NCBI GenBank assembly: GCA_021841025.1
Contig: JAKBWA010000019.1
Location: 1 to 41,720, forward strand
Source: Bacillota bacterium
Lineage (GTDB): Bacteria > Bacillota > Sulfobacillia > Sulfobacillales > Sulfobacillaceae
Reading direction: 5' to 3'
DNA: 41,720 nucleotides
Positions 8,081 through 41,552 of this stretch are shown here, piece after piece (the first letter of the stretch is position 1; each line of letters begins with the position of its first letter). Made by a program: the position numbers and the translations under genes. Below the pieces are notes generated by a model, which made no database searches, was not told the origin of the DNA, and was given only the letters and a program-made list of their open reading frames with translations.

Positions 8081-8426
8081 CAAATCCTCCTCTCGTGATA
8101 TATGCGTAGATTGTCCCGCGATCTTATAAGAGTTCAATGTTTCTTTCATATCCAAAGGACGCCCTGGTCCTGGCTATAAAAATTCGGGGTCGAAGACCTC
8201 TGAGTCCTCTTTGTGTTTCATAATCTTCCGCAATGTTCCGCGCAAGGCCACATCCAATAGAGTCATTGTAGCAAATACCCCAGCTCAAGGCGTAAGCAAA
8301 AAATGGCGGGGGGAATAAATTCGCTGAAGAAAAGAGGATTTTGTCGAAGCGAGTAGAAATAAATTAAGTTGCAATGAACACTAGACTTCAGAATTCATCG
8401 AACTCAGAAGGAAGGGGAGGGACGTC
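8081..8426. other. intergenic region before the first flagellar operon
   Basis: About 350 bp between the divergent membrane-protein gene and the first flagellar gene. No RNA or gene is evident. A Spo0A-box-like TTGTCGAA lies at 8341-8348, followed by AT-rich DNA with TAAATT at 8360-8365. The sigma-A elements are poor matches, so an activator-dependent promoter is possible. Confidence 0.4.
8341..8348 (+). promoter_or_regulatory. Spo0A-box-like site (TTGTCGAA)
   Basis: An exact match to the TGTCGAA core of the 0A box, about 80 bp before the first gene of the flagellar operon. A TAAATT starts 11 bp after it. The only other matches I found by eye are one before fliO (24799) and one inside a coding region on the opposite strand. 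Confidence 0.35.
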
Positions 8427-8879
8427 ATGAGTGATCAGCCGTTGTCCCAAGAAGAAATTGACAAGCTGTTACAGGCCGTGATTTCCAAAGAGAATGAAAA
8501 AGCCACACTAAGTGACGAACCCATTGCGGCGAAGGGATCAGAAGGAGCACAACCGAGCCGCAATTCCGGACGGACGGATCAGCCTATGATAGAGACCAAA
8601 ACCCCAAGAGGTGTCTTAAGGAACAAAGCGGATGCACAGCGGGGAAAATGGGGAGCGATTGTGGAATTGCAATTGCATTTTACGGCTGAAATCGGGACAG
8701 CTTCCTTGAAATTGGGCGATGTTCTGCAATTGGGGGTAGGCTCAAGGCTTCCCGTCAAAACCCGTTGGATGGAGCCTTTGGTTTTACGACTGAATGGGAA
8801 AACCGTGGGTTATGGCAGGGTGGTTTTGGTCGGAAATAAGTTTGGTGTTGAGGTAACCAGTTGGGGACGACTCGGCTAA
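8427..8879 (+). CDS. FliN/FliY-type flagellar switch protein (SpoA domain)
   Basis: 150 residues. The N-terminus MSDQPLSQEEIDKLLQAV is the conserved peptide that in FliM and FliY binds phospho-CheY. A polar linker (about residues 25-75) follows, then a C-terminal SpoA/FliN domain (ELQLHFTAEIGTASLKLGDV through GNKFGVEVTSW), as found in the switch complex C-ring. There is no CheC-like middle domain, so it is not a full FliY. It heads the plus-strand flagellar gene set and is followed 11 bp later by a TPR protein. A second FliN-like protein lies at 36046 after fliM, so this one may be a second C-ring subunit or a soluble CheY-P binder. Confidence 0.85.
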   Translation: MSDQPLSQEEIDKLLQAVISKENEKATLSDEPIAAKGSEGAQPSRNSGRTDQPMIETKTPRGVLRNKADAQRGKWGAIVELQLHFTAEIGTASLKLGDVLQLGVGSRLPVKTRWMEPLVLRLNGKTVGYGRVVLVGNKFGVEVTSWGRLG

Positions 8880-36046: not shown

Positions 36047-36450
36047 TGGATGATCATAAGGGGCGTTTGAGCCGAGAAGAATTGGATGCATTGACAGGAG
36101 CAATGGCCGACGACTTGGAAGAAGAAGCGCGCCCCGTTGAATTTGTGGATCTCGGCGGGAATAAACCTACTGTGTCGGGCGAAGCGGCTGACGCAGAATT
36201 CCTGTGGGATTTGCCCATGAACGTGGAAGTCATTTTGGGATATACCGACTTATCGGTCCAGGATGTTCTGGAAATTGGCCCGGGATCGGTGGTTGAACTG
36301 GAACGATCCTATGGGGAGCCGGTCGATGTCTACCTCAATGACCGTCTTGTCGCCAAAGGAGAGGTGGTCATCGTCGGTGAGCAATTTGGGGTGAAGATTA
36401 CGGAGATTTTGGCCTCTTTTCCAGAGGAGGAAGAGAATCCTTCGGACTAG
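36046..36450 (+). CDS. fliN: flagellar motor switch protein FliN
   Basis: 134 residues (ATG at 36046, or GTG at 36043, overlapping the fliM stop). The N-terminus has LSREELDALTG, a CheY-binding-like peptide usually seen in FliM or FliY. An acidic linker is followed by the SpoA/FliN domain (MNVEVILGYTDLSVQDVLEI, then VDVYLNDRLVAKGEVVIV and FGVKITEI). It forms the base of the C-ring with FliM and binds FliH. The C-terminal Glu-rich tail lies in a 53-bp antisense overlap with csrA. There is no CheC domain, so it is FliN rather than FliY. Confidence 0.92.
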   Translation: MDDHKGRLSREELDALTGAMADDLEEEARPVEFVDLGGNKPTVSGEAADAEFLWDLPMNVEVILGYTDLSVQDVLEIGPGSVVELERSYGEPVDVYLNDRLVAKGEVVIVGEQFGVKITEILASFPEEEENPSD

Positions 36451-36667
36451 GCGGCTTTAAATTGTCCAACTCCTGGGGAGGCACGGATACCGCTGCCATT
36501 TGATTGTGTTGCTGGGCTTCGAAAAGTTCCTCGCGCATTACGCTGATATGGCGGGGAGCGTCGATGCCCAGTTTTACCTGGTCTCCTTGGATACCTAAAA
36601 CGACAATGCGGATTTCGCCATTGCCAATAATCAGGGACTCATCAATTTTACGGCTTAGTACCAGCAT
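36398..36667 (-). CDS. csrA: carbon storage regulator CsrA
   Basis: 89 residues from the ATG at 36667 (GGAGG 9 bp upstream, inside fliW); the frame extends upstream but without motif. The first 60 residues are the complete CsrA fold, MLVLSRKIDESLIIGNG through APRHISVMREELF, with the conserved RNA-binding Leu4 and Arg6 and the core GIDAP/HREE-like residues. The tail is extended and Pro/Ser-rich. CsrA binds GGA motifs in mRNA leaders and represses translation, typically of flagellin; FliW, encoded just upstream and overlapping by 20 bp, antagonises it. It converges on fliN with a 53-bp overlap. Confidence 0.95.
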   Translation of the reverse strand: MLVLSRKIDESLIIGNGEIRIVVLGIQGDQVKLGIDAPRHISVMREELFEAQQHNQMAAVSVPPQELDNLKPPSPKDSLPPLEKRPKSP

Positions 36668-37109
36668 CGTTTTGGGCCTCCACAAGCAAAGGATATTCGA
36701 ACGAGTACGGTAAGGACAAGACAAATTGTCCTCCCCGCCGTGTTTGGCGGTTAATTATCAAAGGACTTTTAAGGTTAGCGGTGGCTTGTAGACCGTCTCC
36801 GCTTCCTCCATGACTTACCGTACATATACATAGAATAGCCCAAAAGTCCGGATTTCCCAATCCCGCTACTTCATCTGGGGGGACCTTGTAGTCGGGTTTG
36901 AACGTTAAAGGATCAATCACAATGAATGCGAGTTGGGAGTCGGAGACCGACTGCAGGTAGAGAAAAGGACTGTCTTGATGATGCGGTAGTAAGACAAACT
37001 GGCGATGTTTGGGAAATCCGAGAATTTCTTGATCCAGCGTTAAAATGTCCCGCGACGAGATGGTTATCTCCCCATGAAATCGGGTTTGAATCGTTTCTTT
37101 GGTTATCAT
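36648..37109 (-). CDS. fliW: flagellar assembly factor FliW
   Basis: 153 residues with the FliW signature: an ILTLDQEILGFPKHRQFVLL N-terminal part, SPFLYLQSVSDSQLAFIVIDP, and a C-terminal ANLKSPLIINRQTRRGGQ motif. FliW binds either flagellin or an allosteric site on CsrA and so couples flagellin export to CsrA release. It overlaps csrA by 20 bp. The flagellin gene lies outside this window. Usual length. Confidence 0.95.
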   Translation of the reverse strand: MITKETIQTRFHGEITISSRDILTLDQEILGFPKHRQFVLLPHHQDSPFLYLQSVSDSQLAFIVIDPLTFKPDYKVPPDEVAGLGNPDFWAILCICTVSHGGSGDGLQATANLKSPLIINRQTRRGGQFVLSLPYSFEYPLLVEAQNDAGTKP

Positions 37110-37154: not shown

Positions 37155-38054
37155 TTAGGGGTGGATAAAGTTGAGCAAGGACATTGGCAAAATCTGCGCT
37201 CCGCTCTGCAAGGCGGCTTGATAGGCTTGTTCTTCCTGGGCAAGTTGAATGGTGAGTTTAGGAATATTGGCGCCGGCGACCTGGGAAATGGTCTGGTTGA
37301 GATTCAAAGCCAGGCTTTTTAGCTGGGCCTGGGTTTGGTTGACGCGTTCCAAACGCCCGCCTACGATACTCTGTGCGGTTGAGAGATAACTTTGGTCGGT
37401 TTTCAGCGTGTTGATCGCCGATTTCGTCACTTGGGAACCGGAAGTCAGTTGGCCAGCCAGCTTTCCCAGATCTGTGTAAAGTTGGGCCAAGTAATTTTGC
37501 CCCGCAGGCTGGCCCACATTCTCTTCCCCCGTCAGGTTTACGGTAATCGTAGAGCTAGAAGCTATTTGAAAAGACTGGGTTTGGGCAGATGTGGGAAAAT
37601 TTGTTGTTCCGCTAGAGGTAATTACTGGATTAGAGGTGTCATAGCCGCCAAAAAGATAGCTCCCCTGGTAGCGGGTGTTCAACAATTGCCCCAACGCCTT
37701 TTGAGCTTGGGTGATTTGCTGTGCCAAAGCCTGGCGGTCGGTGCCAGTCAGGGTGCTGTTCGATCCCTGAACAGCAATAGACAGCGCGTTTTGCCAAATA
37801 TGCTGCATATTTGCCAGAACACCGGCCGTTGTGTTTAGATAGTTTTGGGCTTGAGTGGCAGCATTTTCATAAGCATGGGTATTAGCTAAGGCGTTGTTCA
37901 AATTCATGGTCGCGCTCACCCTTGAGGGGCTGTCTTCGGGTTGTTGAAAACGCTGCCCGGTTGAAATTTGTTCCTGAATCTGACCAATCCTTTGATATTG
38001 TGATTGGACATTTTGCAAAAGGTTATTCATAAGAACTTGCGGGGTAATTTCCAT
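37155..38054 (-). CDS. flgL: flagellar hook-associated protein 3, FlgL
   Basis: 299 residues from the ATG at 38054 with GGAGGAGG upstream. The N-terminal flagellin-like coiled coil (QVLMNNLLQNVQSQYQRIGQ, ISTGQRFQQPEDSPSRVSA) and the C-terminal helix (KLTIQLAQEEQAYQAALQSG) are the FlgL pattern. A Ser/Thr-rich central domain includes a YLFGGYDTSNP stretch. It joins hook to filament together with FlgK, encoded directly upstream. The gap to fliW is 45 bp. Confidence 0.92.
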   Translation of the reverse strand: MEITPQVLMNNLLQNVQSQYQRIGQIQEQISTGQRFQQPEDSPSRVSATMNLNNALANTHAYENAATQAQNYLNTTAGVLANMQHIWQNALSIAVQGSNSTLTGTDRQALAQQITQAQKALGQLLNTRYQGSYLFGGYDTSNPVITSSGTTNFPTSAQTQSFQIASSSTITVNLTGEENVGQPAGQNYLAQLYTDLGKLAGQLTSGSQVTKSAINTLKTDQSYLSTAQSIVGGRLERVNQTQAQLKSLALNLNQTISQVAGANIPKLTIQLAQEEQAYQAALQSGAQILPMSLLNFIHP

Positions 38055-38121
38055 TGGGGGGCCTCCTCCTACCAAATTGGCGGTTTTGTTGTGTTAGGCA
38101 ATAATGAGCCACAATCCGTTC

Positions 38122-39498
38122 TTATCCCACGGCCTGAAAGAGACTCGACATGAGGCTCTGTTCGACGCCGATGAGCTTGGCGGCGGCTTGGTAACTTTGC
38201 TGTTCGGAAATCAGGTGAGCAGATGACTGATTGATGTCCACGCCGGTAGCGGACTGGCGAGCGTTTCTCAGCGACTGGAGTGTTTGGTTGGCGCTGTTAA
38301 ACAAATCTTGCGCGTGTTGTCCTTGGTTTCCGACTTGACCCACTAAGTTTGTATAATACTGGCCGAAAGTGTATTCGGTGAGAGAGGGACGGGCAGAGTG
38401 GACTAAATTGGCCATGGCCAAAGCATTGCTCCCGTCTCCCGGCGCATTCTTATGCGAGGCGGCTGCGATGGCCTGGGTTGTCAGGTTGCCAAAGACATGT
38501 ATGGTGCCGGCACTAAGTGCGGATGGGGAAAAAAATGGCCCGCCAGGGGTTGAGCTATTGAGTTGGTAGCCTTGCTGCTGTTGATAGTTAACGGCATCGA
38601 CCACAGAGTGGGCGAGTGTGTTCAGTTGTGATGAATAGTTCGAAATGTCGGCACCAGCCTGGAGCAAGCCGGACAATTCGCCATTTTTCAATCCGGTCAG
38701 GGGATTACCGCCTAAGTGGACTTGAAGGATCCCTGATGAAGACGCGGGCGGGCTAACGGACAAAGACTGGGCCTGATTATTGGAGACTAACTGGTTGTTG
38801 CCCAGATAGACGTTGACACTTTGATCAGGATTGACCGTGTAAGATATATTGACTAATTGACTCAACTGGTCCAAAAGCAGTCCTCGTTGGTCAAGCAGTG
38901 CATTAGCACTGCTGCCGGAACTGCTGACACTGCTGATCTGAGTGTTGAGCCGAGCGATTTCGCTGCTGAGGGTATTGATTTGATTCACCGTGCTATTTAC
39001 CGAATGGTTCACGTTTTGAATAGTGGAGTAGAGTTCTTGGCTCATGCCGTTAAAAGTCCCGGCCAGAGACTTTCCCTCTTCAAGCACGGCCTGGCGTGAA
39101 GAGAGACTGTTTGGAGTTTGTGAGAGTGTCTGCCAGGCATTGAAAAAGTGGCTCATAGCTTCCTGAAGGCCACTAGACGCCGGTTCTTGAAAAATATTTT
39201 GGATTTGGGACAAGACAGAGCTCAGAGTTTTCCATCGGCCCATGGATCCATACTGGGTACGGACACTTCGGGAAAGGAACGCGTTTTGAGCTCTGGAAAT
39301 GGCCTGAACGTTCACTCCCTGACCCTCTAAAGTGCCGTTCAAACTGGAGGAGGGGATGGGCGGAGCTTCGACCAGATCTGCTGTTTCCCGGCGATAGCCC
39401 GGGGTCGCTGCATTGGCCATGTTGTTGCCGGTGACTTCCATAGCCAATTGTTCTGCGGCTAGACTGCGGCTCGCGATATTGAGAATGGTAAATGCCAT
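38122..39498 (-). CDS. flgK: flagellar hook-associated protein 1, FlgK
   Basis: 458 residues from the ATG at 39498 (AGAAGGGA upstream). It shows the NNMANAATPGYRRE motif of hook-type proteins, an N-terminal coiled coil, a Ser/Asn/Gln-rich central part with DQRGLLLDQLSQLVNISY typical of FlgK, and the C-terminal GVDINQSSAHLISEQQSYQAAAK helix. It is the first hook-filament junction protein. The start at 39579 given by the open frame lacks a ribosome binding site and the preceding codons are not family-like. Confidence 0.94.
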   Translation of the reverse strand: MAFTILNIASRSLAAEQLAMEVTGNNMANAATPGYRRETADLVEAPPIPSSSLNGTLEGQGVNVQAISRAQNAFLSRSVRTQYGSMGRWKTLSSVLSQIQNIFQEPASSGLQEAMSHFFNAWQTLSQTPNSLSSRQAVLEEGKSLAGTFNGMSQELYSTIQNVNHSVNSTVNQINTLSSEIARLNTQISSVSSSGSSANALLDQRGLLLDQLSQLVNISYTVNPDQSVNVYLGNNQLVSNNQAQSLSVSPPASSSGILQVHLGGNPLTGLKNGELSGLLQAGADISNYSSQLNTLAHSVVDAVNYQQQQGYQLNSSTPGGPFFSPSALSAGTIHVFGNLTTQAIAAASHKNAPGDGSNALAMANLVHSARPSLTEYTFGQYYTNLVGQVGNQGQHAQDLFNSANQTLQSLRNARQSATGVDINQSSAHLISEQQSYQAAAKLIGVEQSLMSSLFQAVG

Positions 39499-39515: not shown

Positions 39516-39848
39516 CTAAAAATCTATATTGATTGCCGTACGCTGATGAGTACCGATCAGCATCTGTACAAAATCGCAATAACCTAACTGTGCGCTCAGA
39601 ATTTCATGGAGAAACTGAGTCCGTTCCTGCCACCTGGCTGCATACTGTCTGATTGTTTGACGTTTTTCGGCACTGAGTTGACCTATGTCCGGGAGATGGT
39701 CGTTGACCCAGGTTAATGGGTCCAGTTCCTCTTGTAGCAACTGAACCAGACGTTCGGTATCACGCGTTGTTGCTGCTTCGATTTTCTCTTCAGTTAAGGT
39801 TTCCAATTTCAGTAAATATGCTATGCAGGTATCGAATATGTCGTCCAT
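39516..39848 (-). CDS. flgN: flagellar protein FlgN (chaperone)
   Basis: 110 residues, wholly alpha-helical with a Gln/Glu/Leu-rich pattern like FlgN, which is the type III chaperone for FlgK and FlgL. Positioned immediately before flgK, its usual place in Bacillota. Sequence conservation in this family is low, so the assignment relies on length, helical content and position. GGGAGAGC precedes the ATG. The gap to flgK is 17 bp. Confidence 0.75.
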   Translation of the reverse strand: MDDIFDTCIAYLLKLETLTEEKIEAATTRDTERLVQLLQEELDPLTWVNDHLPDIGQLSAEKRQTIRQYAARWQERTQFLHEILSAQLGYCDFVQMLIGTHQRTAINIDF

Positions 39849-39869
39849 CGCTCTCCCGTTCCTGGCGAG

Positions 39870-40262
39870 TCATAGTAGCATGTCGCACAATAGCCCGCGA
39901 ATCAGTTCCATCCGTTTCATTACCTCGTGCGCCCTTGAGGGTTTGGTTAAACTTTGGCGCAATGTCTCCAATTCTGTATTCACACTGTAAAGATACACCA
40001 GGTACCGAAACTGACCCGAAGGAGAAAAATAGCCTTCTGCTTTAGCCTGATGAGTCTCGAGGGCATGCTGCAGAATGTCTCTCACGGTTCTTATGTACCC
40101 GTTGACGCTGCCGATGCTGAGATGAGCGATTACGGTTTTTTCTTGTCGGTCTAACTGTGTCCAGAGCTCTTTTAGTTTACTGGAGACGACTGGTTTAGCA
40201 ATATGATGGCTTCCTCTGACAGTCGGCAGGATCCTTGTCTCACTCACTCTTTTAGCTTGCAT
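39870..40262 (-). CDS. yaaR: YaaR/DUF327-like protein
   Basis: 130 residues. The C-terminal two-thirds resemble DUF327: a charged helix, an IGSVNGYIRTVRDILQHAL region, a hydrophobic FRYLVYLYSVNTEL helix and the ending RMELIRGLLCDMLL (the family ends IRGLLVDL). Members are small cytoplasmic proteins of unknown function. Here it is the first gene of the flgN-flgK-flgL-fliW-csrA cluster, downstream of a sigma-D-like promoter, taking the position that flgM has in B. subtilis. No FlgM signature is visible. Its ribosome binding site is weak. Confidence 0.6.
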   Translation of the reverse strand: MQAKRVSETRILPTVRGSHHIAKPVVSSKLKELWTQLDRQEKTVIAHLSIGSVNGYIRTVRDILQHALETHQAKAEGYFSPSGQFRYLVYLYSVNTELETLRQSLTKPSRAHEVMKRMELIRGLLCDMLL

Positions 40263-40353
40263 AGCTTCATTTTACGTGGGCTAATAAATCCGAGTCGAAG
40301 ATTAGAAGGTATTTTATGAAGAAAATATTTGAAGAGTAGATCATCTAAGCAGG

Positions 40354-40381
40354 ATATCGCTGCAAAACCGCGAATACTTTA
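40354..40381 (-). promoter_or_regulatory. sigma-D/sigma-28 type promoter
   Basis: On the minus strand TAAAGTAT (from 40381) is followed, after 16 bases counted from TAAA, by AGCGATAT (40361-40354). The consensus is TAAA, 14-16 bases, then GCCGATAT. The -35 is complete and the -10 matches six of eight. It lies about 90 bp before yaaR-flgN-flgK-flgL-fliW-csrA, a set that is sigma-D dependent in B. subtilis. Confidence 0.65.
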
Positions 40382-40447
40382 GCATTGAAATGATGAATTA
40401 ACTAACTTGTGATAAATAAACTTTATCATGTCAAAGAGGGTATCCTT

Positions 40448-40648
40448 GTGAACGATGTAAACGATGGTATCTTAAAACGCGTTTCCGAACTTCAGCGCGA
40501 ATTGGATCGAATTTATGCGGCCACTTTGGATATAGCCGACCCGCTGTTATTGGCTGTAAGCCGCGAATTAAATGAATTAATCGTTGAATATTTGCGAAGA
40601 CAACCTATTGTGGTTGAACCACCTGAGTCAATGGCTAATGATTCTTAG
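40448..40648 (+). CDS. Spo0E-like sporulation regulatory protein
   Basis: 66 residues from a GTG at 40448 with AAAGAGGG 7 bp upstream (the frame opens at 40409). It is a helical hairpin with the motif SRELNELIVEYL near residues 38-49, the Spo0E family motif (usually SQELDxLI) with Asp replaced by Asn. Family members dephosphorylate phospho-Spo0A and so delay sporulation. The Asn may weaken catalysis. It is convergent with a second Spo0E-like gene, the stop codons overlapping by 4 bp. Confidence 0.7.
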   Translation: MNDVNDGILKRVSELQRELDRIYAATLDIADPLLLAVSRELNELIVEYLRRQPIVVEPPESMANDS

Positions 40649-40860
40649 CCCGGCGAGATTGATCCGGAAACTTCTCCGCAATTATGCTCATGCCAATATT
40701 GTTGAATCGAAACTACATATTCGTCAATTTCCTGACTTACTGTGAGAACGTCAGGGTCTAAGTTGCCTTTTATCTTGGCCAGTGTGGTGAGTACCCTTTG
40801 CAGCAGGCGGATTCTTTCGACGGCTCGGCGGTATTCGCTGGCGCTCTGTAAGTAAGTCAC
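40645..40860 (-). CDS. Spo0E-like protein
   Basis: 71 residues from a GTG at 40860 (AAAGGAGAG 8 bp upstream); the open frame extends to 40893. The two helices are RAVERIRLLQRVLTTLAKIK and the DPDVLTVSQEIDEYVVSIQ motif, in which SQEID is the canonical Spo0E signature. It converges on the neighbouring Spo0E-like gene with overlapping stops. A pair of such proteins beside the flagellar locus suggests a link between motility and entry into sporulation. The tail beyond the second helix has His and Cys and is variable. Confidence 0.7.
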   Translation of the reverse strand: MTYLQSASEYRRAVERIRLLQRVLTTLAKIKGNLDPDVLTVSQEIDEYVVSIQQYWHEHNCGEVSGSISPG

Positions 40861-40942
40861 GGCTTGTCTCTCCTTTCGAACAAAGTATACCACGATCTAG
40901 GTTAGAAGCAAGATCGTGGTAGATATGGCATATAGTGTTATT

Positions 40943-41158
40943 TTACTTCATTCCCAGCTGTTTTTTTACCCAATAGGCTAGAATCTCACCGGTACCAACG
41001 CCGTTTTGTCGCGCGGTTTTGCGGAACTGGTCGAACATCTGAAATACTTCTTGCTGAGCCTCAGCATGTCCTTCAGTCGGTCTTACCGAGAGATGTATAC
41101 CTTCTCTGTTTTTCTCAATACTAAAGTCGTAGCCAGCAAAGCGCGTTTTACGGGCCAT
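40943..41158 (-). CDS. small hypothetical protein with sigma-28-like promoter
   Basis: 71 residues. It begins with a basic beta segment (MARKTRFAGYDFSIEKNREG) followed by a charged helix and a C-terminal helix (GVGTGEILAYWVKKQLGMK). No family is recognised. AAAGGGGG precedes the ATG. A GCCGATAA element ends 21 bp upstream. It may be a late-class flagellar or motility accessory protein by promoter type, but that is inference. Confidence 0.6.
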   Translation of the reverse strand: MARKTRFAGYDFSIEKNREGIHLSVRPTEGHAEAQQEVFQMFDQFRKTARQNGVGTGEILAYWVKKQLGMK

Positions 41159-41179
41159 AAATAGATCCCCCTTTCCAGC

Positions 41180-41205
41180 TTATCGGCATTTATGTTTTTA
41201 GTGTA
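41180..41205 (-). promoter_or_regulatory. sigma-28-like promoter candidate
   Basis: On the minus strand TACA (41205-41202), 14 bases, then GCCGATAA (41187-41180). The -10 is an exact match to the sigma-28 consensus; the -35 matches TAAA in three of four. The expected transcript start falls next to the ribosome binding site, which would leave a very short leader. Confidence 0.5.
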
Positions 41206-41419
41206 GCATAGAAGCCTGGAAGGAGTCTAAAAAACCAGCTATTCGAGTTTCCAAGATGCCGCGTTTGGTGTTTGGATACGTCGAGTATGGGATTATTCAA
41301 AAAATGTTATCTCTCCCAAGTGAGAATATAATAATCCCCCAAAAAGAGCCCCTGCAGTCGATTAAGTGGTATTCTAGAGTTATCAGGCAACTGGATAGGA
41401 TGGCAGATGATATTACGGC
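41206..41419. other. intergenic region, nothing recognised
   Basis: About 210 bp between the small-protein promoter and the tRNA promoter. It is AT-rich, with no open frame carrying a ribosome binding site and no clear hairpin. Confidence 0.4.
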
Positions 41420-41448
41420 TTGACAGTAGTGGACTGCGCTTTTATAAT
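41420..41448 (+). promoter_or_regulatory. consensus sigma-A promoter for the tRNA cluster
   Basis: TTGACA (41420-41425), exactly 17 bases, then TATAAT (41443-41448): a perfect housekeeping promoter. The initiator tRNA begins 27 bp downstream, placing the transcript start about 20 bp before it. Confidence 0.93.
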
Positions 41449-41475
41449 ATCCGTTGTGCACTGATGGAGTTTCAC

Positions 41476-41552
<77 letters not shown>

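Follow-up and report, generated by a model that had tools for sequence, protein, structure and literature searches.

A Spo0E-like gene within a conserved flagellar gene order suggests that motility and sporulation are genetically linked in the Sulfobacillaceae

Introduction

Most work on how a cell decides whether to swim or to form a spore comes from Bacillus and Clostridioides. A stretch of 41,720 nucleotides from a member of the Sulfobacillaceae, referred to here as the window, carries two small Spo0E-like genes, A and B, together with flagellar genes. The question raised by this locus is whether a Spo0E-type protein is coupled to flagellar expression in this lineage, and by which route. 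The first-pass annotation of this DNA had described the pair and had proposed a local control of motility by Spo0A~P. Its observation is confirmed in the present analysis and its interpretation is partly supported. A Spo0E-like gene among flagellar genes, in some genomes opposed by a second, related one, suggests that motility and sporulation are directly linked at the genetic level.

Results

The Spo0E-like gene pair

The two genes are convergent and occupy positions 40448-40860, with the coordinates and orientation given to them initially. Gene B, on the minus strand (40860-40645), has a GTG start with AAAGGAGAGA upstream and encodes a protein of 71 amino acids with the motif SQEID. Gene A, on the plus strand (40448-40648), also has a GTG start and encodes 66 amino acids with the motif SRELN, in which Asn stands in place of Asp; both motifs read as first described. 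With the Pfam Spo0E-like family (PF09388), B scored 27.8 bits and A 26.4 bits, both above the gathering score of 23 bits. A search of the same genome for Spo0E-like genes (E<=10) yielded nothing besides A and B. The signature SxxxD, as defined in PMC11115286, is present in B (SQEID) and not in window A (SRELN), and A is therefore classed as Spo0E-like only. The stop codons of the two genes share 4 bp (40645-40648), as had been claimed. Across relatives, with the window pair counted in, 5 of 11 pairs overlap (by 4, 4, 4, 4 and 8 bp) and the other six are spaced by 0-22 bp; thus the overlap is not fixed.

AlphaFold2 models built from three-sequence alignments predict two helices in each protein, H2-26 and H32-50 in A (mean pLDDT 87.7) and H7-31 and H36-60 in B (mean pLDDT 79.8). 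The predicted two-helix core of A is conserved, as judged from the alignment of 11 A proteins and the model. When the models were compared with the PDB by Foldseek, the Bacillus anthracis phosphatase 2c0s was found for A at rank 28 (rmsd 1.3 over 45 columns, E 3.8); for B there was no match at E<=0.001, and 2c0s was not among the 50 matches listed. The Foldseek hits of these predicted hairpins are weak and unspecific. By sequence, the B profile matched 2c0s with an E value of 0.015, ranking it behind a designed protein (0.0088), and the A profile found no Spo0E structure.

Flagellar gene order around B

On the minus strand the genes follow one another in the order DUFx71 (40943-41158), B, a DUF327 gene (39870-40262; PF03885, 40.8 bits), an flgN-like gene (39516-39848), flgK (38122-39498, start codon picked by eye; PF22638, 208.5 bits), flgL (37155-38075; PF00669, 56.2 bits), fliW (36648-37109; PF02623, 91.5 bits) and csrA (36398-36667; PF02599, 78.7 bits). 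The label flgN rests on position, because the Pfam FlgN score is just 11 bits and below the cut-off; flgL is named by its position and its flagellin N-terminal domain. Gene A, on the plus strand, separates B from DUF327; it converges on the former and diverges from the latter. The pair had been placed next to the flagellar locus. The location is right, but B lies within the conserved flagellar gene order and is a member of it more than a neighbor, with a single transcript being putative.

The gene upstream of B, DUFx71, encodes a 71-amino-acid protein whose family is unassigned, with no Pfam match over the cut-off and no NCBIfam match at E<=1. Other bacteria often have flgM at this position. 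DUFx71 is conserved and adjoins B in 23 of the 27 B-bearing family genomes (tblastn; window counted in); it also stands beside B in G005, a genome in which no FlhA was matched.

Conservation of B and of the pair

A profile made from 27 B proteins was run against 154 genomes belonging to the class. Matches above 85 bits were obtained in 27 of the 34 family genomes; at this threshold B was absent from G002, G014, G023, G025, G026, G032 and G033, four of which have a completeness of 59-71%. Of the 27 genomes with B, 24 have the genes DUF327, flgN, flgL, fliW and csrA after it on the same strand (in several genomes flgK had diverged too far to be matched by tblastn). The exceptions to the B-DUF327-flgN order are G003, G004 and G005. 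No flagellar gene was matched in the fetched stretch around B in G003 and G004, and G005 gave no FlhA match at E<=1e-20 yet keeps DUFx71 and B. B is therefore not purely flagellum-linked, and from its persistence in G005 it may have a use outside flagella.

Outside the family, four B matches of 47.8-70.3 bits were found in two further families of the order (G119, G120, G121 and G124), and each of them adjoins flgN, flgL, fliW and csrA. The weaker matches of the class, examined in 16 fetched loci of 13 genomes (G056 and G058 not among them), have none of these flagellar genes nearby. Inspection by eye of the Spo0E matches listed for 199 genomes from across the phylum showed none, outside the family, within 10 kb of a FliW match.

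Gene A, inverted in the flagellar order, accompanies B in 11 genomes from three genera. It is present in 7 of 8 genomes of the window genus, where the eighth has a completeness of 61%, in both genomes of g6 and in 2 of the 5 of g11. In the antisense ORFs of 13 A-less genomes no remnant of A was recognized by eye. Conservation of the pair beside flagellar genes, which the first-pass annotation had put forward as a check on its proposal, is thus found both for B in its order and for the pair. A different Spo0E-like gene occurs inside a flagellar cluster of G002 (L167, 4505-4690, minus strand), with flgG/flgE-like, fliQ-like (by reading) and flhB genes as neighbors; a gene related to it is located 4 kb from flhB in G001 (L074).

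Such linkage could arise without any coupling, B being an ordinary Spo0A phosphatase that rides in the flagellar region and A an unrelated later insertion. The B genes of G003, G004 and G005, with no flagellar genes in the fetched stretches, are in keeping with this, as are the phylum-wide lack of listed extra-family matches close to FliW and the separate promoter-like element of DUF327-flgN described below. We nevertheless consider it unlikely, as B-DUF327-flgN has been kept in 24 of 27 divergent family genomes, B adjoins flgN in two further families, and the place and orientation of A are retained in all 11 genomes across three genera.

Motif, selection and origin of A

SQxxD shows no variation among the 27 B proteins. 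Among the A proteins, 3 of 11 have Asn (window, G013 and G015) and 8 have Asp. The other Spo0E-like proteins extracted from the family (n=28) comprise 27 with Asp and one with Asn, a sub-threshold protein of G014. Asn is therefore seen in 4 of 66 Spo0E-like proteins, the three of A and that of G014, a count that covers 64 extracted proteins and the window pair and omits weaker matches as well as seven proteins over the cut-off (three of G027 and one each of G025, G008, G021 and G024). The G014 protein (L041, 5254-5517, minus strand; motif SRILN) comes from the window genus, and its 6-kb contig has no flagellar match.

Judged from these proteins, the Asn of A is a lineage-specific change. The Asn variant had been suggested to act as a non-catalytic competitor; the variant is present, but with 3 of 11 A proteins carrying it such a role could apply to the Asn clade alone. 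The motif Asp is critical to Spo0E function in B. subtilis, according to PMC11115286. With the catalytic Asp lost, the A protein of the window clade probably binds without dephosphorylating.

Synonymous and nonsynonymous changes were compared in seven pairs per gene (five for flgN), some of which were saturated at synonymous sites. Within the Asn clade the dN/dS of A was 0.10 (window vs G015) and 0.16 (G013 vs G015), the comparison of the window with G013 being saturated; two Asp-bearing pairs gave 0.09 and 0.15. Values were 0.05-0.11 for B (four unsaturated comparisons) and 0.11-0.23 for flgN. Since its ratios stay at 0.10-0.16, A in the Asn clade still resembles a selected protein, and looks to be under purifying selection. 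A midpoint-rooted tree of 66 proteins, built from 54 columns and with weakly supported deep forks, places A and B in separate groups. An origin of A as a recent copy of B is thus unsupported.

Spo0A, sigma factors and flagellar regulators

The genome has one Spo0A gene (152.7 bits), so that a candidate substrate of B is present. Its receiver and DNA-binding parts look intact by reading. Spo0A, the lack of which had been named as fatal to the earlier proposal, is also found in 31 of the 34 family genomes, with no match in G014 or in the draft assemblies G006 and G007. G007 has the A-B pair, so either its draft is missing the part with Spo0A or the pair may occur where Spo0A does not. SigH is present, over the cut-off. 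In the same genome FliA gave no match over the cut-off and FlgM none at E<=1, despite many flagellar genes. Another sigma factor may therefore set flagellar timing, and another checkpoint protein may be needed.

These results bear on a further explanation, in which B (and A) would control motility by binding another regulator rather than by dephosphorylating Spo0A, and would thereby feed back on the flagellar genes. According to PMC11115286, Spo0E of C. difficile binds RstA, and Spo0E affects motility in both C. difficile and B. subtilis with no need of Spo0A. The lack of an FlgM match fits such a role, as does the selection that keeps the Asn form of A although the catalytic Asp is gone. A pure binder would perhaps have no need of SQxxD, however, which all 27 B proteins keep, and B persists in G005 without an FlhA match. 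On balance control by binding another regulator seems rather unlikely.

Promoter-like sequences and 0A boxes

Upstream of A a sigma-H-type promoter sequence, GCAGGATAT-N11-CGCGAAT, is located at 40349-40375 on the plus strand, and in 7 of 7 congeners it stands at the corresponding position of the alignment. Scores for sigma-H were obtained by a home-made weighting of the consensus, with a maximum of 19. The A promoters of the seven congeners scored 18-19, with 0.3-6.7% of shuffles as high. For A in four members of the two other genera the best scores were 16.5-18.5 at differing places, and 2-15% of shuffles reached them. As a control, the sequences that precede DUFx71 in the seven congeners scored 13-14.5.

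The first flagellar gene, with a FliMN_C domain (8427-8879, plus strand; PF01052, 58.5 bits), is also preceded by a sigma-H-type promoter sequence (8333-8359, plus strand). Its score was 16.5-19 of 19 in the seven congeners, the lowest being that of G015, which was equaled by 21% of shuffles. The spacer of this promoter contains an exact TGTCGAA (8342-8348), which we take to be the canonical 0A box. The exact site recurs in 6 of 7 congeners and is absent in G013. No A-promoter spacer among the 11 contains TGTCGAA, although the one in G007 has TGCCGAA. A bulk enrichment of 0A boxes was also considered and rejected: TGNCGAA occurs 32 times in the window against 26.0 +/- 5.5 expected, which is chance level, and TTTGTCGAAA with up to two mismatches occurs 54 times against 53.7 expected. 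Of the 0A-box-like sites once proposed to precede the flagellar operons, the bulk is thus at chance, but the one exact and conserved site stands. In the upstream region of the organism's own spoIIGA, used as a yardstick, no clear box was seen, and the 0A-box consensus is therefore putative for this lineage.

DUF327-flgN has a promoter-like element of its own (40269-40319, minus strand), made up of the -10 sequence TAAAAT and an upstream A/T-rich element, here CTAATCTTCGACTC. TAnAAT aligns at a common position, with fixed spacing, in 22 of 25 loci, whether A is there or not. Column counts for this element cover 21 of the 25 loci, as L052, L062 and L122 have no row and L079, a near-copy of L078, was omitted. 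The element is 0A-like and a tentative candidate for a box: TTCG occupies the position of a 0A box in 7 of 22 rows and by eye is one base off in four further rows (L037-L040); at or near this position it occurs in 7 of 7 congeners vs 4 of 15 others. In the window genus the -10 begins 12 nt before the start codon, so that the message would be leaderless or nearly so. With this element in front of DUF327-flgN, B may not be co-transcribed with flgN.

An extended -10 (TATGCTACACT; 41200-41210, minus strand) is found upstream of DUFx71-B and conforms to T[AG]TGnTACACT in 18 of 24 loci. A sigma-28 promoter for DUFx71-B (GCCGATAA) had been a candidate and was rejected. A similar site occurs among the 24 loci only in G013 (GCCGATGA), and its place instead holds the conserved extended -10.

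The inverted orientation of A, its own promoter-like sequence and the lack of any terminator-like site between A and B in a scan of 39800-41480 would also fit a gene that acts chiefly as an antisense transcript. The convergent mRNA would then lower the B message in the manner of a non-contiguous operon, a concept established in PMC7154746 and PMC11087260, and the A protein would be of minor account. Loss of the Asp in one clade agrees with this as well. Such an explanation is improbable for a protein with a conserved predicted two-helix core, which in the Asn clade, too, seems to be under purifying selection (dN/dS 0.10 and 0.16).

Discussion

The explanation that we tentatively favor, with confidence a little short of even, is that a Spo0E protein is coupled to flagellar expression, that motility and Spo0A~P inhibit each other, and that A is encoded antisense under a sigma-H-type promoter. 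B would be a Spo0E-type protein that holds Spo0A~P low while the surrounding flagellar genes are expressed. Conversely, Spo0A~P would reduce flagellar expression by acting on the 0A box that lies within the first flagellar promoter. The outcome would be that motility and sporulation inhibit each other. What the analysis shows is the content, order and conservation of the genes, the constraint on the motif, the selection and the promoter-like sequences; the enzyme activity, the binding partners, the co-transcription, the overlap of transcripts and the direction of each effect are what we infer. A would be a second Spo0E-like gene, placed antisense within the gene order and read from the sigma-H-type promoter; its role could be transcript interference through a putative overlap with the B message, binding to a presumed partner, or both. 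Another form of this explanation is a toggle within one gene cluster, in which the flagellar-borne B would lower Spo0A~P during flagellar synthesis, and A, made antisense from its sigma-H promoter, would shut off B through convergent transcription and protect Spo0A~P by binding it with no dephosphorylation. This toggle is doubtful. Read in this way, A would be catalytically dead in one clade.

Invariance of SQxxD in B, an intact-looking Spo0A and the exact 0A box together lend support to a local Spo0A link, as the first-pass annotation had suspected. Spo0A~P is not the sole possible route, however, given the Spo0A-independent effects of Spo0E on motility reported in PMC11115286.

Many genera retain a Spo0E gene in their flagellar gene order, and in one clade its antisense partner has lost the catalytic Asp while staying under selection. 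This makes for a natural experiment on whether Spo0E proteins affect motility by way of Spo0A, and on the function left to such a protein once the catalytic residue is gone. In the literature library searched, no paper was found on Spo0E with flgN, nor on Sulfobacillus with Spo0E.

Three known systems can be compared with this locus. With the Spo0E aspartyl-phosphate phosphatases (PF09388) A and B share small size, a predicted two-helix core and a score over the Pfam cut-off, and B shares SxxxD. They differ from that family in being encoded within a flagellar gene order and, for window A, in having Asn for Asp. The Spo0E-Spo0A-RstA switch of C. difficile (PMC11115286) likewise ties Spo0E to sporulation and motility, but there the link is made by protein binding and here it shows as gene order. 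The non-contiguous operons of Staphylococcus aureus (PMC7154746, PMC11087260) also have an opposite-strand gene with its own promoter-like sequence amid genes of one strand. Such an arrangement is seen here in 11 genomes, where the flanking genes form a putative operon. In contrast to those operons, the inserted gene and its convergent neighbor belong here to the same protein family, and co-transcription of the flanking genes is putative.
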